Part shown: in pieces, positions 6,042-37,401 of the stretch
How the letters are laid out: each line of letters begins with the position of its first letter
How positions within the stretch are numbered: position 1 is the first letter of the stretch
Assembly (NCBI GenBank): GCA_961205875.1
Contig: OY540815.1
Location: forward strand, 6,386,001-6,450,000
Reading direction: 5' to 3'
Length of the DNA stretch: 64,000 nt
DNA from: Sialis fuliginosa
Taxonomy: Eukaryota; Arthropoda; Insecta; Megaloptera; Sialidae
Position numbers and translations under genes: made by a program
Notes under the pieces: model-generated
What the model was told of the DNA's origin: nothing
Seen by the model: only the letters and a program-made list of their open reading frames with translations
Databases searched by the model: none

Positions 6042-6430
6042 CCTACGAACATCCTGTATAAGTGATAGATAATATTACATTAGTCTTGATTATAACATCC
6101 AGAAAAAAATCTATGAGATTATATACGCGTGCAGTGTGCACGTACCAACCTATAAGCAATTTATTTAATCCAACACGTTTACGCACACATTGCAGTGGAC
6201 ATCTTCTAAAAGTGCATTTTTAGAAGAGCCCTGAAGATGTCCACTGCAATTTGTAATGAAACGTTGGCCGATAACACGACCAAACCGACGCGGCTTATAC
6301 CCAGAAGCCAAGATCCAAAATAAGTAAGTCCTACGAACATCCTGTATAAGTGATAGATAATATTACATTAGGCTTGATTATAACATCCGTGCACGTACCA
6401 ACCTATAAGCAATATATTTAATCCAACACG
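6042..6430 (+). repeat. Tandem duplication containing second hairpin copy
   Basis: The block starting TCCTACGAACATCCTGTATA recurs about 287 bp later, followed both times by GTGATAGATAATATTACATT and ACCTATAAGCAAT. Between them (6188-6316) is a second copy of the CTGAAGATGTCCACTGCAAT unit with its own small hairpin (6188-6254). Confidence 0.65.
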
Positions 6431-6948
6431 TATATACACATCTGGAGATCTATCTTCGAGATATTTTACAACTCAAGTTAACCAGAAAAATCGAAGACCC
6501 ACCACATAAATATAGGACGTGTTTTTTCCATAAAAATAACAAGCACCTATGCTTCATGAATATATTTTTTATACATACGGGGGTAAAAAAAATATGTATC
6601 ACGTATAATGTGCTTCATCTCTGGAAAATTATCATTATGGTACGCGAAAAACATGCAAAGCAAAATAAACAAATAACATATTTGTTTTCCAGTTTGTATC
6701 TGATCATATTCTGTTGACTGTGGTATTTTTGAAATTTCAGTAAAACATTTTTCTGTAAGGTGGTACAGTGGTACCAAATATTTTAGTTATTAACTTCCCA
6801 ACAGAAAGTTATTGAAATCGGTCCGAAAATCGAAATAAAAAATTTACACTATTTTCAGAATGTGTGTTTGTATGTGTATGTACGTACATGCGTGTAATTT
6901 TTTCCTGCACGAAATCTTGCAAATAAAAAATGCTATTGACTTCGTTGG
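6431..6948. other. No gene recognised
   Basis: AT-rich. A 76-codon minus frame here has no recognisable motif. Nothing else seen. Confidence 0.45.
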
Positions 6949-6956
6949 GGTACCAA

Positions 6957-7163
6957 CAGGGCCGCAACTAGCGACTTAAATTTTTTTTTAATTTTTCGTT
7001 GCCAACTTGAATTTTACACTTATTATTAATTATAATTAATAAGAAGTGTAAAATTCAAATTGGCGACCAAAAAAAAAGGGTTTCAATTTTTATTTTTGAA
7101 TATTCTGGGGGGCCCTCGGTCACTTCTTGCCCCGACCTTCCCGAGTCTCTAGTTACGGCCTTG
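6957..7163. mobile_element. 207-bp hAT-type MITE
   Basis: Ends CAGGGCCGCAACTAGCGAC and, inverted, CAAGGCCGTAACTAGAGAC. Perfect 8-bp duplication GGTACCAA at 6949-6956 and 7164-7171. The interior holds a tight palindrome at about 7001-7064 (arms near 28 bp, GAATTTTACACTT). CAG ends with an 8-bp TSD are the hAT signature. Confidence 0.8.
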
Positions 7164-7171
7164 GGTACCAA

Positions 7172-7609
7172 TCGAAGCGTCTTGAAAGAAAGGATTTTTC
7201 GAAATTCAACCCTTATGGGTTTACTTGAAATTTGGTACAAAATCTTTCATTAATTTTTAAACTATACGCTAATTGTACAAGAATATAAGGGTATGTAATA
7301 GAATATTTTGATATAAATTAATTACAAATTAAAATTTTATTGCGAGCAATATTAAAAAGTTACGTGACCTTAACGTTGAGTACCACTGGTGTATAAAATA
7401 GTGACCGTGGTTATCAACTACATACAGTGATGTTTTGAATTTATCAGGAGAGTGTGGCTTACATTGTAAAATTTAATGTTTTTTAAATATCTAATTTATG
7501 TATGTTATATTTTTTACGTATATGGTAATACAGGGGTGACTAAAAGTAAGAAAGATTGAATCTACAGAATCTTCAATTTATTCCAGGCAATGTTGCAATG
7601 ATTACATCT
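7172..7609. other. No gene recognised
   Basis: AT-rich; nothing recognisable. Confidence 0.45.
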
Positions 7610-8020
7610 AATCGTCATTCGAAAAATGAGACTTTTTTTAGGACTTTTTTTGGAATAATAAAAAAGCAATCAAATGAAATTTGGAGGCTTCATTGTACAT
7701 GTCTCAAAACATATTTTTTTAAATAATGTATAAAACAAAATCAACCACGATTAGTTAATCAGTTATTTTCAAACCATGATTAATGTTAATTCTAAACTTA
7801 ATCTCAATTTGTAAATGAACAATTCACTAAATATGCTGATTTTTTAGCTTATAAAATATACCATAACCGTGATTGTTTTTTAGAATTGACGTAATAATGG
7901 TTTTAAAACAACTGACTAACTAATCGTGATAAATTTTGCTTTATGCACCCCAAAGTGAGTGCATCTTTTTTGTTATGTGCTCCACTGCGGAAAACTTCTA
8001 TGGATCAACATCCAGAACAA
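7610..8020 (-). repeat. Dispersed repeat, minus copy
   Basis: Reverse-complement similarity to 58812-59050: shared GTTCTGGATGTTGATCCAT, ATAACAAAAAAGATGCACTCA and GAGACATGTACAAT blocks. Class unknown; no inverted ends found. Confidence 0.55.
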
Positions 8021-9615
8021 AAAAAAAATTATAGTTATTTATATGAGTTTTGTTTTATAATTTTTATGATATTTAAAGGGTTGGAGTTTCGAATAATCAG
8101 TGTTTAAAACGTCTCTGTATAGAATTTCAATAAATAGAACACTTCTGGCGAGTTCTTTCATATACAGTGTATTAAAAACTCTAGGTGTATTAAAAACTCT
8201 ACGTGCAATATTACTTTAAAAAATTAGTAAAATATATGAGCTATCCATAAATAACAAATTTTAGACTTTTATCTATACATAATGATCGAATAACCTTAAC
8301 GCATGAGTTTAAGGCAAAAAACAGGCCTTATCTATCCACCTCTTTTATCCATAAGAAACTATTCATTTTACTTACATTTTAATAGATCGATTTAAACGTC
8401 TCTTCTGTATTTTATTGAAAACCCAGTTGTTTCAGTAAATAATTATGGGTTAGGCACGTTTTAATTTGTAGCTCCATGTTTAATAGATCAACACACACTC
8501 ACACATGTGTACTTCGCGATAGACTGACAGATTAATACATCAGCCAGAACGTGTTCCAATTAATATTAAACCGTACCGGTATAAAATATATTCGGCAACA
8601 GACAAATAAGTTATTCGACATAGTTTGCAGAGTTTTGTTTAGAATATAATATTAAATAGACGAAGACAAGATGTTAATTACGAATCCGAGACTTATTTAG
8701 TTAAATGACTGTTGTAAAATAATATTAAAATATTCAGAAATTATAAAAAAATCTTAAATATAATGTTTCCTGGCCAATTTATAAATAAAATAACATAATG
8801 AACTACATGAGAAATGCTGAAAATCTCTGATTGTTGTACAATAATATGATTGTTTTCTAAAAGTAGATTGTTTTTGTTTTTTTTTTATATTTACTGAGAA
8901 AGTCTCAAATGACGAAACGTTTAAATAAATAATGTTATAACACGTATAACTGTTTTAATGACCTAAAACCTCGAAGAAAATAAAACAAAATTTATAAATA
9001 AATTGGTAGTAAAAAGAAGCCTAAGACCCTAAAATATATTTTGACTAACGTTTTGATGACTTACATGGCAGTTGCGCAGTGTTTAAAGCAGCCAGTTGTG
9101 CAGTCTTTAGTTATAACGAATAAAATGATCAAATAATATAAAATTATAAATTAATTATAATATTTCGTTTCAACTGTAAAAATTAATATATTTTAAATTA
9201 ATATAATAATAACAAAAACAAAAAAATAACCTCATAATGTAACGGGCGTATGTGTGCATATATACCCGGGTACATTCGTGCGGAAAATTAAAAAAGTAAT
9301 AAAATGAAAGGGTCGCAAAGTGGGAAAATAAAAATAAGGTCATAAACTGTGGTTCGACCACAGCAAAAAATAATTCATACAATGTGTTATGGGCGAAAGG
9401 CAGAAAACGCTCGCTCTACACTGAACTTGACAGCTAGAACTTTTCTCATTTATTATTATTTTTTCATTAATTGTACGCATTTAATTTAGGGCATGCGTAC
9501 AATAATTTCAGTTTAGTTTTTAGATGAGACGTGCACATTATAAACTGTCTGACTTTTCAAATTTATTTCGTTAATTATAAAAGGGTATATGTAAGTGGGT
9601 GTACGCATATTTAAA
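8021..9615. other. Long AT-rich stretch, no gene
   Basis: At 8908-8931 there is CTGAGAAAGTCTCAAATGAC followed by GAAACG, similar in form to the hairpin arm at 5934-6016. Otherwise I see no coding signal, repeats or element ends. Confidence 0.45.
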
Positions 9616-9960
9616 ACTAGCTGTACTCGCGGCTTCGCTCGCTTAAATATAAAAGTTAGATAAATGCCATCGCAGAGTTTATTTCAGATATTTTTATTAT
9701 ACACAATTCTTTACTACATTACATTGTATTTAACGGTTTATTGCAAAAGATCGCGTTGGCGGTAAACTTTTTTCCGAGTTGATTTACTATTATCGTCACT
9801 GTTTATTCCTTATGTTACATAACGTAATAAAATATATACTAAAACCTGGGCAAAGAACATATCTATGAATAAAAAAAACACGTAAATCGGATAAGTGGTT
9901 CTCGAGTGATAAGCGTATAACGGACGGACAGACAGAGAGACGTTGCGTTTTATAATATGT
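9616..9960 (+). mobile_element. Modular Helitron-like repeat, family 2 copy A
   Basis: Begins ACTAGCTGTACTCGCGGCTTC and carries TTTACTATTATCGTCACTG and CACGTAAATCGGATAAGTGG. It ends in GACAGACAGAGAGACGTTGC plus an AT run. Related copies: 20670-20997 (minus), 41825-42680 and 56536-56885. No TIRs or TSD seen. Helitron-like by analogy, unproven. Confidence 0.5.
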
Positions 9961-14551: not shown

Positions 14552-15063
14552 TGTTCCTTCAGACATTTCCCAAAATACACAAAATCCATTACTGTCCATT
14601 GAAAGGGCTAAGTCTCTCGACAAGAGGGAAATTCCGAAGGGGAAGGGGGCGGGGGTCGAAACAGGGTTCTCGAGTTTTATTAAACCTGCTGACTACACCA
14701 GGTGCATGCGCTGATACAGGGGTGTAGTTAAAATTTTATTCGAAGCAATTAACCTTTAGTGCTCGTTAAAAAGGTAAAAGAAAATTGTAAAATGTATGCA
14801 ATAATTTAGCCGATATTTGAATGTGTCAGCATACCTCTGTTTAGAATTTAATTCGGAAATTAGCTTCTTCCGTGCTATTTTAATTACATTGTTGTCGTTT
14901 TTAACGCACATTTACAAATTAACACATGTTTTTAAATAGCAGATTCATTGTTGCAATTTTATCAGTTTGAAAAACGTACAAATATTACATTTACATTTGA
15001 TTAATTCTGTAAATTTAATTTATAATGCATCTAGAAAAGGAGGTTCTCATTTCCATCAATATA
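14552..15063. other. No gene recognised
   Basis: Contains a G-rich patch (14638-14660). Nothing else recognisable. Confidence 0.4.
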
Positions 15064-15590
15064 AGGTAAAGGCACCAGTTATGGCCGCTATAAGAGCAAG
15101 TTTTCGGTTTTTTTTTTGGATTAATTTTGTAATTTTCATGTACTCATGTTACTAATAAAACAAGTAACTCTTTATTTAATCAATTTAATTACCAAAGTCT
15201 GCAAATATAGTTTGGTTTTTTAAATTATAGCCTTTTATTTTGTTCATATTTTTTCTTCAGTAATGGCGAAGGTAAAACTAGTAATGAGCACGCAGTGATG
15301 GACAGGAGCTAATGATTACAAAATGATGATTACTACGACACAAAAGATATAAAAGAAAAAATTGTAAAATTTTAAACAATGTAAAGCAGTTGCTATGATA
15401 ATATAATAATTAATAAATAAATTATACTAATAATTTTATTAGTTTAAATGTCCACCATTTTGACACCTATTGGCCGATTGTCATCAAATCACGTTCTATA
15501 TAGATTAATATTCAAAAATGGTAGTAATCAAATATCAACACATATTTCTAATTCAGTACATTTAATTAAAAATTTGCCTTACATATTAAT
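15064..15590 (+). mobile_element. MITE family GGCACCAG, copy 1
   Basis: Starts GGCACCAGTTATGGCCGC and shares TGTCCACCATTTTGACACCT and CAGTACATTTAATTAAAAA with 38092-38520. It also matches 16644-17200 in inverted orientation. The 3' terminus seen in the inverted copy is missing here. Confidence 0.6.
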
Positions 15591-16643
15591 TAAAAATTAA
15601 CCTTATATATTTTATGAATGTTCGAGCATAACTCCGACAAATATGCATCGATTTGGACGTTTTTTTTTTTGTTTGAAAGCATATATTCCGGAGGTGGTCC
15701 CATATATAAATTTTATCAGAATTTGACCATGGACTTCTTAGATACGCCAATCGAAAGGAAAAATTTTATTATACATTTAATTATACAAAAAATAAAATAA
15801 AATGCTCATTATTTTGGTTTTTATTTTTTTAAGGTTATGTAACAAATTTATAAGATTTTAAACTATTCAGTTTTGTAGGGAAATTCAAAACGAAGACAAT
15901 GTTTTCTTTTAAGCATTTTCTGCATTCCGGCCTATAGAAATGTAGATATTTTTTAACAATGTACAAGAGAAACCGTAAAAATATAGTTTTTTCAAAAAGG
16001 TAAAAAAATTGCCTTCCAGGGGCACCCAATGTAAAGATTTCAGTTACGTACTCCCTGTGATGACTAGAATAAGTTTTAAAAAAATGCTCCGTCCTTTCAG
16101 TTCTTTGAAAAAAGAATCGCATGTGCATATTTTATTGCTTGTAATTAAAAATCAATAAAAACAATTAATAACAAATATAGAGCTCTCAAATCTATGAAAT
16201 TATTTGCATCAAAAATATTTTATTTAACTAATGTACATTTAACTATTGCAGGAATACGTTCTTATATCTAACCTTATGTATTTGAATTTTAAATATGGAA
16301 TAATAATTTAATTAAAACAATTAATAAAAATTTAACAAGGTCTCGTGCTAAAACGGCATATTCTCTCAACTAACCCAATTAAATTAATCAAAGCAAGCTA
16401 TGTAAACCATATGCAGATAAAGATTAGCTCGCCGGCTAAGTTTAAGGATTAATTACACCATAAATAAAACTGCCGCGAAGTCGGATAGAACAGTAATATT
16501 AACCATGTAATAATAAAAACTAACCGAGGTTCTTGAGTTGTGGCAAAACTTGGTCTGTGGAAAGTTGCCGCTGACTCAAAACGTTGATTTTGTTTTATTG
16601 TTTATGAAATTATGATTTTGAATTTAAAAAAATAAATTTATAC
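15591..16643. other. Spacer between inverted MITE copies
   Basis: A 97-codon minus frame at 15835-16128 shows no family features. No repeat ends seen. Confidence 0.4.
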
Positions 16644-17200
16644 GGTGCAGGCACCAGTCTTGGATATGACACCAGTAATGGCTATTTTTAAATTAAATGT
16701 ATTGAATTATAAATATTTGTCGATATTTGATTACTCCCATTTCTGAATATTAATCTAAATATAACTGTCTTACAGCGTGATTTGATGAGAATCGGTCAAT
16801 ATGTGTCAAAATGGTGGACATTTAAACTAATTATTAGTATAATTTATTTATTAATTATTATATTATCAACTGTTTTACATTGTTTCAAATTTGATGATTC
16901 TTTCTTTTATATCTTTTGTGTCGTAGTACTTATCATTTTGTAATCATTAGCAAGTGTCCAACACTGCGTGCTTATTTCTGGTTTTACTTTATCCATAACT
17001 GGAGAAAAAACATAAACAAAATAAAAGGCTATAATTTAAAAAACAAACTATATTTGCGGACTTTGTTAATTAAATTGTTTAAATAAAGAGTTACTTGTTT
17101 TATTAGTAACATGGTTTCATGAGAATTAAAAAAAAGAAGCCCGTCAATCACAAAAATAATAAACCTTGCTCTTATAGCGGCCATATCTGGTGCCAGTACC
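16644..17200 (-). mobile_element. MITE family GGCACCAG, copy 2 (full length)
   Basis: This is the most complete copy. Ends GGTGCAGGCACCAGT and, inverted, GGTACTGGCACCAGA give short TIRs. It lies opposite to copy 1 about 1 kb away, so the two could pair as a large hairpin. No clear TSD. Confidence 0.6.
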
Positions 17201-17264
17201 TTATTTGTAAAAATATTTTACAGAAAAAGTGGAGAAACCTAATTAGACTCAAGAGCTACATTAA

Positions 17265-31037: not shown

Positions 31038-31253
31038 TGCACTGTTAAAAATTTTTGTAAATTTACTACATTTTTACTAAGCAGTTGCTTTGTAAAATTA
31101 CAAACTCTCGTATTGTATTGGAATTTTCAAACGCATTCGTAGTAATATTGCAATTTGTAATAACAAGAGTACTAAGCAGGTTGCAATTTTACAAATTTTT
31201 TGTATTCGTCAGAAACTTGTTGTAATTTTACCATTCAAAGTTGTAGAATTAAA

Positions 31254-32106
31254 TCTAAAGTTTTGTAAAATTTCCATACATATTCGGAATTTAATTTTAC
31301 CACAATTATCTGTAAAATTACTAACCAAAATTTGCAATTACAATCTCAAGAAGTGATTGGAAATTTACAAATCATTATTTATTTTTTCAAATTTTGTTTG
31401 CATTTTTACAAAAATTCATTCAAGTCATGAGCGCTATGTATTTTTACAAGTCTTGTTTGTAATTTTAAGTCTAAAACTTTGTAAAATTTCTACACATATT
31501 CGGAATTTAATTTTACCACATTTATCTGTAAAATTACTAACCAAAATTTGCAATTACAATCTCAAGAAGTGATTGGAAATTTACAAATTATTATTTATTT
31601 TTTCAAATTCTGTTTGCATTTTTACAAAAATTCATTCAAGTCATGAGCGCTATGTATTTTTACAATTCTTATTTGTAATTTCAAGTCTAAAACTTTGTAA
31701 AATTTCTACACATATTCGGATTTTGATTTTACCAAGATTAATAGTAAAATTACTAACCGAAACTTGCAGTTACAATTACAGGAAATTTACAAATCATTAC
31801 TTTTTTTTTTTAAATTCTGTTTGCATTTTTACAAAATTTCTTTCAAGTCATGAGCGCTATGTATTTTTACAATTCTTGTTTGTAATTTCAAGTCTAAAAT
31901 TTTGTAAAATTTCTATACCTATTTGTAGTCTAATCTTACTACAGTTATCAAAAAAATGACTAACTGAAATACGTAATCCAAATTGCAAAAAGTGATTGAA
32001 AAATTGTAAAACTTTAATTACTTTAGATTTGTTTATATTTTTACTAGTGTCTCTTACAATCATATAGTTTTATGTAATCTTCTAATTCTGCTGTGTAGTT
32101 TCAAGT
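31254..32106 (+). repeat. Subterminal tandem array, four units of 207-217 bp
   Basis: Unit starts at 31254, 31471, 31687 and 31894 (CTAAAACTTTGTAAAATTTC), with a fifth start near 32107. Units share CATTCAAGTCATGAGCGCTA and TTTGCAATTACAATC. The repeated open frames here are products of the array, not genes. Confidence 0.85.
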
Positions 32107-32656
32107 ATAAAACTTGGTATATTTATTTTGCATTTTTATAAAATTGTGACTTATGCAGATTTAAAATTTAATTTGAATGCAGTTCTAAGTAAAATTAGTA
32201 GCAAACATTTATACTTGAATTGCAAGTATGAAGTATAGATTATAAAAAAATATTTTTTTTTTATTAAAATGTTTTAATATACATGTTGTTTCTGAATATG
32301 AAATATGTTAGTTTTATAAAAAAAACCTCATAGAATCGATCAAGTGTATAAAAAAAATTGTGAAAGAACCGAATTATTCACTGTGGTAAAAAATAGTGAT
32401 AAAATTTAATTGTAAGTGTAATAGGGTATGTTCAAATCTGCATATCAACATTTTTTATATTTGAAAGTAAGTAAATCTTTGCTAATTATTATTTATGAAT
32501 TATATATAAACTGGTCAAAATGCCTAAAACAACCTTTATAAATGCTCCATATGCCGGTGTAAAACAACCTTTAATTTTATTCGAATTTGCAAGTCCCGAC
32601 CAGCATAGAAAAAATCATTGTTGCGTTTCTTTTGACATGCCGACACAAGTATAGAA

Positions 32657-34464
32657 CAGTGATTCTCAAAGTGTGGGTCGCGACTCCTAGGAAGGTCGCA
32701 GAAAAATTGATGACATAAACCGAGTTTAGTAAGCAAACAATTATTTTTTACTTGGTGTGAAAACAGTGTCCACTATTCGCTGAATTAACAATGACAGTTC
32801 TCTTGCCATTTGCAACCAACTTATTTATAGGCGAGCGGATTATCGAGTCTAGCTCGCTTAGAAATGACAATAACCGACCAATCGACGTTCTAGTGGCTAA
32901 AAATGATTTTATTAAATTCTTTATATTTTTCTGAGAAAAAACATCTATATACATGATATTTTTTTATGCGGTCCTTCAATAGGTACACACATTTTTTTGT
33001 TTAATAAATCTAAATCTGCATTAAAAAATCTGAAAAAATTATGTAAGCTTCATTGGATTAAAATGAACATTTTTTGTCTCATAAACTTTTTTTTAAAATC
33101 AATTGTTTTGAAGATAAAAAATATTTATACTTTAAAAATAGCGAAAAATTCGTATATTTGTGATTTTTTTTCTCGGAAACTAATTGTTCAATCAAAATAA
33201 ATCAAAAACAAAAAGAATCAGCCAACTTTGAACTATAACTATATTTTTTTTCATTTTCATCATTACTGTAATTAAATGTAAAAACTTCATTAGAGCCGAA
33301 CTCACTCTTTGCGCCGTAAATCGATACCATGGCTGGCTACAACATTCATTTAATAATAATTGAAATATTTAAATACTGGGATGAATGCATCAATAAAAAC
33401 ACTTTAGAATATTTTTATTGCACATTTATTTGTCACGATTATTTTCTTTATTATAATATTATACTTATCAGAACATCTACAAAAAATATTTCTGTTCTTG
33501 TTGCGGAAAATTTCCTTGTACAGCTAAAACATGCTCTTGTTTGGATTTAGATTTAAAATGTTGTTCAGTTTGTAGATGTTTTGATAAGTGTAACAATAAA
33601 GAAAATAATTGTAACAAATAAATGTGCAATAAAAATATTCTAAAGTGTTTTTATTGAAACTTTCATCCCAGTATTTAAATATTTCAATTATTAAACGAAA
33701 ATTGTAGCCAGCCATGGTATCGATTTACGGCGCAAGGAGTGAGTTCGGCTCTAATGAAGTTTTTACATTTAATTACAGTAATAATCAAAATGAAAAAAAA
33801 TCTAATTATAGTTTAAAGTTGGCTGATTCTTTTTGTTTATGTTTTATTCTGATTGAACAATTAGTTACCGAGAAAAAAATTCACAAATATACGAATTTTT
33901 CGCTATTTTTAAAGTTAAAATATTTTTTATCTTCAAAACTATAGCTTTAAAAAAAAAGTTTATGAGACAAAAAATGTTTATTTTAATCCAATGAAGCTTA
34001 CATAATTTTTTCAGATTTTTTAATGCAGATTTAGATTTATTAAACAAAAAAATGTGTGTACCTATTGAAGGACCGCATAAAAAAATATCATGTATATAGA
34101 TGTTTTTTCTCAGAAAAATATAAAGAATTTAATAAAATCATTTTTAGCCACTAGAACGTCGATTGGTTGGTTAGTGTACTCGAAATAGCTGTAATCCGCT
34201 CGCCCTATTATACGAAATGGTATTTTCAGTACTGACCAACATCAAAACAAAGCCGCGCTCACTCATCACATTAAATTTAATTTAAAATATTTTAAGTAAA
34301 CTCAATTAGTTAGTTAAGTTAATGTCGAAAAATATACAAATAATATTTTGTTCAAAGATGTACTCGAGATAAGTTATTAACTTGTTATTAATTATTATTG
34401 ATATTAAATTTCGCTATTAATCACAATTATGAGTGATTCAATTCAAAAAGTTTGAGAAATACTG
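32657..34464. mobile_element. 1,808-bp hAT foldback nested in the CACTG element
   Basis: Ends CAGTGATTCTCAAA and, inverted, CAGTATTTCTCAAA. Perfect 8-bp duplication GTATAGAA at 32649-32656 and 34465-34472. The interior is a giant palindrome: left arm about 32831-33483, right arm about 33569-34203, joined by an 85-base loop. Mirror-image open frames in the arms are by-products. The loop overlaps a short cysteine-rich frame (33457-33621). The bare terminal stretches outside the arms differ (174 and 261 bp), so the palindrome is an internal rearrangement, not just long TIRs. Confidence 0.85.
33457..33621 (+). pseudogene. CXC (tesmin/TSO1-like) cysteine-rich fragment in hAT loop
   Basis: An open frame of 54 codons runs between TAA at 33454 and TAA at 33619, without an ATG. 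It has 12 Cys, at residues 13, 15, 16, 21, 26, 28, 35, 36, 39, 41, 45 and 52. The spacing C-x-C-C-x4-C-x4-C-x-C-x6-C-x3-C-x-C-x3-C is very close to the CXC/CRC zinc-binding domain (CxCx4Cx4CxCx6Cx3CxCx2C) of tesmin/TSO1 and MSL2-type DNA-binding proteins. The frame spans the unpaired loop of the palindrome plus some of each arm. It is likely the remnant of the last exon of the parent transposon's protein; no start or upstream exon was found. Confidence 0.5.
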
Positions 34465-34956
34465 GTATAGAACATAGTTTCATGTGAACGCGCTGGCGGA
34501 AGGGGTAAATTTTGTTACATTTTATTTTCTCACGATGCTAAGCTACTGCGTATGAGCAATAATACGATTTTTGAACAGTCGTTATTAAAAATTTGTTGTG
34601 TAAAGATTGATGCTGCTACAAGTGATTTTTTATAATTCTGTTGTTTAATCCAATAATTGTTTTTAACGTTTATTGAATATATATCTGTTATAATTCAGGT
34701 AACTTTTTCACCTACTTACATCTTTAAGCTGTAGCCATTTGTCTAAACAAATGATTTTTATTTTTGGAGTTAAAATTTTAAGGCAAAAGAAATATTTTCT
34801 TGTTTCAAATAATTTTTTTCCAAAACTAAGATTTTAATATTTGAAATGTGTAATCAAATTTTGATAAGTGTTTTAAAATTTCACGACAAATAAGTATAAC
34901 TTCTAACGCGTGTACATAAGTACACATACCCACTTTTTGTTTTGTTTTTTATAGAC

Positions 34957-36357
34957 ATGGATCATAAATATCGTCTTATATTATATTATATTATATATAC
35001 ATGGCTTCATTTTGAAGAAGATTCTGATAAGGTATATTGCAAATATATGCCAGGCCTGCTTGATGATCCAAATGTATGCGAAGAACTGCAAGAAATGGTG
35101 AAAAATTTAGAACCACCCAAATCTACATAGCCAACATTTCTAGTGGATATTCACGGAAGTGCTCGTAAGTAATGATATGTTATTTTAAAATAAATTCTTT
35201 ACCACAATATTAATTTTTTTACATTTTATTAATTTTTTATGAGCAAAAAAAATATTTTGACATATTATTAATCAATTTTTTAGATACTTATAAAGAAGCT
35301 GAAAATAAAATCGTTGAGTTAGAAACAAAACCATATGTATACTCGACAGCAAATGAAGAATCTGCAAAAAAAAGCAGATACTGATAAGAAGGCTCTGAAG
35401 CGCAAATTTGTTGCAAAGAATAAAGAGCTCATTAACAAACAATTTAGTCAAGCAGCATTGAAATGGACAGACGATCTTCGTATAAAAATTCGTAAGTAGT
35501 TTTAATTTTTTTTGGTAAAATTTTTTGTTATAAATATGCAACAAATATATTTTTTTTAATGTTAGATTCATCTAATCCTAAAAGTCAACACACAAAAAGA
35601 AAAAAATTGAATTCTAAATCGATTTCAATCCCAAGTTGTCACCCATCTGATGACACTGACATTAAGTCAACTTCAACGGAATTTTCCAGTGATGAAGACA
35701 ACACTAACGGATTAGATCCAAACAATATATTAAATCCAAAAAGGATTGTAAAAAAAAAAAGCTGAAGAAAAACTCGAGACCAGTGCAAATCAACCAATGA
35801 CAATAGGTAAAAACATACATCGTTTTTTTTTTCTTTAATGTGTATTGGAAACGTGATTTTTTTTGTTACAGAAGATCTGCATCAATTCATATCGAGCTGT
35901 TTTGTAAGCATCGGCAAACGTTTGTCAAATTTAGGAAGTCAATTAACCAATTATTCAACCAGATTACAAAGCCTTGAAAATGTCATTGAAAAACTTCATA
36001 ATTCAACAAGCATTTTGAGTGACGAAATCAGTAACTCTGAGAGTGAATTTGACATGATTCTTCCACTACAAAATGAAGAAAGTTTTATTAAATTTAATGA
36101 TAAAATTAAAAATGATGTTGATTTTAAAAAAAAATTGGTAAGTAATCACAAATAAAATTATTATTTTTTTATATAAGCCCTATTTTATATAATTCGTTTA
36201 TAAGACATGAATAATAATTTTCTTTTTTTAGATTTACAAATTGTTATGCTAAATAAACAAGACAGTAGATATAACCAAGAATATTGGAAAGATACTCCGT
36301 GCCTACATTACTCGTGATTTGGCAATTAATTATGTGGCAATCAAAACGTCAGAATAA
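34957..36357 (+). pseudogene. Five-exon DUF4806-like gene, recently inactivated
   Basis: Exons are 34957-35164, 35284-35491, 35566-35806, 35872-36137 and 36232-36357, each with consensus splice sites. The first three junctions are phase 1 and the last is phase 0. The order is an N-terminal segment, a Lys-rich middle, a Ser/Asp-rich linker, a possible coiled-coil (residues GKRLSNLGSQLTNYSTRLQS) and a C-terminal block starting LPLQNEESFIKFNDKIKNDV. That block, with RAYITRDLAINYVA in the last exon, resembles DUF4806, a domain of unknown function common in arthropod proteins linked to transposons. Damage: TAG at 35128, an extra A in the run at 35366-35373, an extra A in the run at 35750-35760, and TAA at 36250. 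Good codon structure outside these suggests recent death. A possible 5' non-coding exon ends at a GTAACT near 34698. Confidence 0.6.
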
Positions 36358-36925
36358 TCTTCAAAAAAAATTTAAAATTTGTGTTAGCATTAAATTATGT
36401 TATTATTTTCATAATATAAATTATTGATAACACTGTTATAATTAATGACATATGTTTAATTGTTAATTAAATAATTAATAAATTAATATTTAATAAATAT
36501 TTTATATTTAACACTAAAATACGCTGTTGTAGCATTCATTGATTTAACAATTTTTTTCAGTAAAATTACAGTCTGATATTGAAATAAAGCTATGCAAGTT
36601 ATATCCCGATGCATAGTAATATTGCAACGAGCGGTTTGTATTTTTTTCAAATTGACTTGATGTAAGTTGGGTAGTAAAAATTCAATACTGCAACAAATAG
36701 TTTGTAATTTTTCGAAACTAAATTGGTATTAGTTGGGTTGAAAAATTACGATATATGGTTGTAAAATTACTAAATGTATTTAATCTAATTTGTTTAGTAA
36801 AATTCCGACTATTGTATTGTAATATTACTAAACAATTTTTTAATAAAGGTTAGTAATATTGCAACAAATAGTTTGTAATTTTTCTAAACTAAATTGGTAT
36901 AAATTGTCTAGTATAATTACAATAA

Positions 36926-37363
36926 ATTTTTGTAAAATTACTAAAATTATTAGAAACATTTGGCTTAGTAAAATTACGAATAATGTACAGTAATATTACT
37001 AAACATAAGTCTAGTAAATGATTAGTAATTTTGCGACAGATGATTTGTAATAGTTTAAAATTGAGTTGTGATAAATTGTATAGTAAATTTACAAAACTGT
37101 GTTCCATAATTCCGAAAATTGTGGTGCGTAAAAACTTCCTACACATTTTTGTAAAATTACTAAAATTATTAGAAACATTTGGCTTAGTAAAATTACGAAT
37201 AATGTACAGTAATATTACTAAACATAAGTCTAGTAAATGATTAGTAATTTTGCGACAGATGATTTGTAATAGTTTAAAATTGAGTTGTGATAAATTGTAT
37301 AGTAAATTTACAAAACTGTGTTCCATAATTCCGAAAATTGTGGTGCGTAAAAACTTCCTACAC
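36926..37363 (+). repeat. Two identical-looking 219-bp tandem units
   Basis: Copies start at 36926 and 37145 (ATTTTTGTAAAATTACTAAA), and a third partial start at 37364 runs into the element end. The translated frames of the two units are the same, so the duplication is recent. It is the right-hand counterpart of the 207-217-bp array at 31254-32106. Confidence 0.85.
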
Positions 37364-37401
37364 ATTTTTGTAAAATTACTAAAGAAATTTTTGACAGTGT
37401 G

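Follow-up and report, generated by a model that had tools for sequence, protein, structure and literature searches.

A recently amplified element with inverted CACTG ends

The window analysed here is a stretch of 64,000 nucleotides from Sialis fuliginosa (C7:6386001-6450000), whose genome comprises 392 Mb in 20 contigs. Positions 31040-37399 of the window hold an element of 6,360 bp with CACTGT...ACAGTG ends. Its left end, CACTGTTAAAAATTT, and its right end, AAATTTTTGACAGTG, are near-complementary, and TG flanks the element on both sides. The left terminal inverted repeat, identified from the sequence and from genome counts, spans 31040-31054 on the plus strand; the right one spans 37385-37399 and reads CACTGTCAAAAATTT on the minus strand. 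The two TG dinucleotides, at 31038-31039 and 37400-37401, represent the copies of a 2-bp target duplication. Terminal inverted repeats of this form were present in all 21 full copies that we compared (20 fetched from contig C1 and the copy in the window), and they follow the pattern 5'-CAC(TR)...GTG-3' of CACTA/EnSpm elements.

Next to both ends lie subterminal tandem arrays in plus orientation. The left array consists of 3.3 copies of a 216-bp unit (31254-31964), rich in GTAAAATTAC-like motifs, and the right arrays of 2.4 copies of a 171-bp unit and 2.1 copies of a 219-bp unit (36684-37383), which bear such motifs as well. With at most one mismatch, the core GTAAAATTAC and its complement were found at 9+9 positions of the left 1,150 bp and at 15+9 of the right 900 bp, certain sites being scored on both strands because the core is nearly palindromic. 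No site was found in the 4,310-bp interior (0+0) and 5+7 sites in the 57.6 kb of the window outside the element, while shuffled controls gave means of 0.2-0.65 per strand with a maximum of 4. Motifs in both orientations at both ends are likewise a property of CACTA/EnSpm (TRC, CMC) elements. The boundaries drawn in the sequence-only reading proved exact, and the dense inverted subterminal motifs and tandem arrays that it described are present.

That reading, sound in treating the element as real, overlooked a palindromic repeat of about 1.39 kb nested in its centre (32825-34211, approximate borders), of which many copies occur elsewhere. A 42-mer of the palindrome arm yielded 275+281 (556) genome matches with up to three mismatches, so that there are over two matches for every copy of the element, and four copies outside the element (L081-L084) matched at 94-98% and had TAGGCGAGCGGATTA-like ends in common. 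Judged from these copies, the central palindrome is an independent repeat and does not belong to the design of the transposon itself. A long palindromic structure also lies elsewhere in the window (15061-17204), with arms of 53-192 nt that are 85-92% complementary; the sequence of its outer arm is also found directly beside the insertion of copy L028.

Copy number and target duplication

The 15-mer CACTGTYAAAAATTT had 205+209 matches in the genome compared to 15+25 for the reversed control, a raw end count that is inflated because an unrelated repeat (L033, L038, L050, L051 and L052) carries the 15-mer CACTGTCAAAAATTT behind AACGAA. The more specific 45-bp left end, with up to two mismatches, gave 82+82 = 164 matches and none (0+0) in the control. 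From 100 listed 15-mer places, 76 could be joined to 38 convergent end pairs with a median length of 6,358 bp (range 6,082-9,654), and 23 of the 38 fell within 6,300-6,400 bp. Copies elsewhere in the genome that share these boundaries, on which the sequence-only reading depended, are thus plentiful. Of the 24 unpaired ends we read 20, which represented three right ends of the same family, eight members of an older CACTG-ended family, five cases of the unrelated repeat and four unrecognised sequences. The older family (CACTGTCAAAAATTTCCGAGTCAAATTTACAAG...; L034, L036, L039, L040, L041, L045, L046 and L047), whose motif occurs at 17 exact genome places, has a subterminal sequence that by eye resembles the right end of the window element; BLAST at 1e-5 returned no match between the two.

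Eighteen of the C1 copies and the window copy were near-full-length and could be aligned over 6,386 columns. All 19 differed from the consensus by only 1-19 substitutions (0.02-0.30%), with a median pairwise distance of 0.24%. The burst of this family is very recent.

In 19 of the 21 copies the same two bases flank both ends (13 TA, 4 TG, 2 AA); two copies (L021 and L026) show no matching duplication, and a match over 3 bp was seen in 0/21. TA is favoured at the junctions, so that flanks of unrelated copies also agree at 2 bp in 44.5% of comparisons (positions 20 bp away agreed in 2/21). The argument for a 2-bp duplication therefore relies on the copies flanked by TG or AA and on empty sites. 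Two copies, L012 and L017, are inserted three bases apart within copies of one repeat, and the joined flanks of L017 matched 40 genome places at 80-84% identity. Six of these empty paralogues were read, and all six carry a single TG at the target of L012. For L017, too, these six sequences agree with a single TG; there is a length difference of 6-7 bases just upstream of its site. These empty paralogous sites are stronger proof of the 2-bp duplication than the flank matches. Where a duplication of 2 or 3 bp had been anticipated, the empty sites thus show 2 bp and not 3, a short duplication of the CACTA/EnSpm (TRC, CMC) kind.

The internal DUF4806 gene is broken

The only domain found in the element belongs to a broken gene on the plus strand, whose exons were set by eye at GT-AG borders (4/4 introns), so that another splice form could skip a stop. 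Its first recognisable exon (34957-35164) contains an in-frame TAG (35128-35130). Two exons with A-runs of variable length follow (35284-35491 and 35566-35806), a DUF4806-like domain begins in the fourth (35872-36137), and the last (36232-36357) holds the remainder of the DUF4806-like stretch together with an in-frame TAA (36250-36252). Read through this one stop, the C-terminal 77 residues matched PF16064 (DUF4806) with E = 2e-4 and 22.1 bits. The match covers positions 5-58 of the 90 in the profile and extends across the stop; the score lies below the curated cut-off of 25 bits for membership in the family. The 316-aa read-through that ends at the last-exon stop gave no DUF4806 match at E up to 1. 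We consider the internal gene to be the remnant of a spliced DUF4806 gene, with a likeness that is real but weak.

The damage to this gene is shared by the copies. The first in-frame stop stands at codon 58 in 19/19 aligned copies, the inferred spliced frame is interrupted by 10-37 stops per copy in these 19, and the last-exon TAA is present in 21/21 copies. The two A-runs vary among copies (8-10 and 8-12 letters) and the reading frame consequently differs between them, certain copies retaining the frame at single A-runs. Sequence surrounding the first stop was found at 82+82 genome places. TAG was present in 100/100 of the matches listed, and sites that carry additional changes near the stop lie outside these 100 of 164. 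A protein search agreed: among the N-terminal matches listed, 25/25 had a stop (24 TAG, 1 TAA). Moreover, the pseudogene exons of the 19 copies show no deficit of substitutions compared to the rest of the element, with 29 in 19,932 sites (0.145%) vs. 129 in 100,693 sites elsewhere (0.128%). The stops and the lack of a substitution deficit indicate that the gene was dead before the burst or early in it, and thus the burst was not driven by the gene in cis.

The remnant nevertheless belongs to the family. A left end in the same orientation lies within 10 kb of 94 of the 100 listed first-exon places, and of the remaining six, three (C1:11781787, C2:2844814 and C2:20031419) adjoin right ends that were read. 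The DUF4806 remnant therefore travels with the element ends in this genome, and the sequence-only reading, which would have been contradicted by DUF4806 copies never associated with such ends, is sustained on this point. Its suggestion of a DUF4806-like gene holds as a weak likeness, while the broken state of the gene had escaped it. The further proposal that DUF4806 travels as working cargo or as an accessory transposition protein is not supported for the amplified element: the copies that were read carry a broken gene without a substitution deficit, and the family has nevertheless reached 164 copies.

Search for a transposase and an autonomous partner

No stop-free frame in the window exceeds 174 aa, and the one of this length lies inside the right tandem array. 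Four open Transposase_21-like (CACTA-type) frames were found in the genome, on C10, C11, C13 and C14: L031 (C10:1744038-1746281) with 748 uninterrupted residues, L053 (C11) with 933, L032 (C14) with 826 and L054 (C13) with 716. Using these four frames as queries against the element consensus, tblastn returned at best a single 17-aa match (E = 0.87) and a profile built from them reached a best E of 0.11. By these searches the element has no transposase of its own, as the sequence-only reading had stated.

All four loci appear to be of low copy number, and they may represent old or domesticated CACTA transposases. Other genomic relatives of these frames were short or largely broken, and a 60-residue query taken from the L054 frame recovered only itself and one fragment. 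As autonomous partners of the family the four were rejected, since its 15-mer ends are absent at 4/4 loci. No DNA match to the element at E <= 1e-3 was found in L031, L032 or L053; L054 had two short matches (32 bp, E = 1.5e-5; 31 bp, E = 7e-4), which we took for AT-rich noise. When the loci were examined for subterminal motifs, one GTAAnnTTAC site was seen in L053 and none in L031, L032 and L054.

Two long copies were also considered as the autonomous form and rejected. The additional ~3.5 kb of L021 (9,654 bp) are an insertion with ends that look Helitron-like by eye, and the additional ~2.2 kb of L009 (8,573 bp) are an insertion that is bounded by TA and has inverted ends of its own.

Following left ends inward (100 of the 164, all of them exact, with inexact ends among the other 64) led to a match with the pseudogene protein within 10 kb in 76 cases, and five were copies that had been fully read. 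The remaining 19 were probed with 700 bases, and 19/19 matched the consensus at >=99.3%, in one case (L073) confined to the nested repeat. A different interior was thus found behind none of these 100 of 164 left ends, L073 being judged by its nested repeat only. Neither these ends nor the four Transposase_21 frames supplied the autonomous copy with a DDE transposase that the sequence-only reading had hoped to find by alignment. Since none of these searches turned up a transposase with matching ends, we assigned the superfamily on the basis of the ends, the duplication and the subterminal structure.

Interpretation

We propose, with a probability of roughly 85%, that the element is a non-autonomous cut-and-paste transposon of the animal CACTA/EnSpm (TRC, CMC) kind, and that its DUF4806 gene is a fossil. 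The absence of a transposase is expected of a non-autonomous CACTA member; no Transposase_21-type DDE transposase was found in the element, and none of the four genomic frames carries the family's ends. A transposase supplied in trans by another element or gene would bind the subterminal motifs and the CACTG ends, excise the 6.36-kb unit and insert it at TA or TG dinucleotides. An ancestor would have picked up or inherited the DUF4806 gene, and the gene would have decayed, either ahead of the burst or in its early phase, and been carried along as a fossil beside the nested palindromic repeat. The best reading of the family is that it is new but ordinary in kind, being young, high-copy, non-autonomous and CACTA-like. 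The CACTA interpretation given earlier thereby stands with regard to ends, motifs, arrays, copies and the missing transposase, and finds no support with regard to DUF4806 as a working protein.

The DUF4806 protein could instead be a present or recent accessory factor, TnpA-like in binding the subterminal motifs, with the broken copies derived and a functional one persisting. The tight association of the remnant with the family and motif arrays that would suit a DNA-binding partner are in keeping with this idea. We consider it unlikely, as the copies that were read contain a disrupted gene without a substitution deficit, and none of the 100 listed first-exon places (of 164) lacks the TAG. Just as doubtful, and concerned with the past of the family, is the proposal that an autonomous ancestor encoded a BEN-like DUF4806 accessory factor that bound the GTAAAATTAC arrays as a counterpart of TnpA, the broken gene being its relic.

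Two further alternatives concern the class of the element. The predominance of TA, in 13 of the 19 matching duplications, and the lack of a matching CACTA transposase would also suit a non-autonomous element of another, TA-targeting superfamily, such as Tc1/mariner or ISL2EU, that has come to look CACTA-like by convergence. This is improbable given the four TG and two AA duplications, the TG confirmed at empty sites, and CACTG ends and subterminal motif arrays that fit CACTA. A non-autonomous element of 6.36 kb is a large one, and the copies here fall in a single length class, so that one might also suspect an autonomous element whose transposase is too diverged for recognition. With a longest frame of 174 aa within the right array, no better than the 17-aa match and the profile E of 0.11 to the four CACTA frames, and a broken DUF4806 remnant as the sole domain, we regard this as very improbable.

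Read as a non-autonomous CACTA-like transposon, the family offers a clean example of a 6.4-kb unit without a transposase that has multiplied very recently and to high copy number; the 100 of 164 left ends and four frames examined in the 20-contig assembly revealed no partner with matching ends. The DUF4806 cargo of the amplified form is a fossil, a hitch-hiking relic and no working part, and it illustrates that a transposon-borne gene need not function for the element to spread. The linkage of this fossil with CACTA-like ends also bears on the origin of a DNA-binding-like domain. If DUF4806 had indeed been an ancestral accessory factor, this would imply a transposon origin for DUF4806 proteins, a group that has undergone expansion in several animals.

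Comparison with known systems

Plant CACTA (En/Spm) elements have CACT(A/G) ends, a 3-bp duplication and the genes tnpA and tnpD, and their subterminal motif arrays bind an accessory protein. The window element resembles them and their deletion derivatives in its CACT(A/G) ends and subterminal motif arrays, but it differs in a duplication of 2 bp and in having neither gene.

Animal CACTA (TRC) elements, such as SmTRC1 and the TRC elements of Aedes and Tribolium, make 2-bp duplications and encode a Transposase_21 protein (PMC1636069). According to the sections of that study available to us, they share with the window element terminal inverted repeats, a size of several kb, an internal tandem-repeat region and a 2-bp duplication demonstrated against paralogous empty sites. 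They begin with CCC and encode Transposase_21 (PMC1636069), whereas the window element begins with CACTG, has arrays on both sides and no transposase. For the wider clade, CA..TG ends and duplications of 2-5 bp are described in the accessible part of a further account (PMC12730594).

The portions of the literature mentioning DUF4806 that were available to us do not tie the domain to transposon ends. A table covering two Hydra species, in which transposase domains are listed as well, gives 69 and 54 DUF4806 domains (PMC7642931).

Spongebob_HMa / EnSpm-4N1_HM of Hydra is 5,836 bp long and present in 441 copies, and its exact transposase was not recoverable (PMC4298943). It differs from the window element in its CCC ends and older copies (~6% divergence), and the excerpt of its description available to us makes no mention of a DUF4806 gene (PMC4298943). 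For neither element was an exact transposase recovered, and Spongebob_HMa is, like the element described here, long, high-copy, of CACTA/TRC type and flanked by a 2-bp duplication (PMC4298943).
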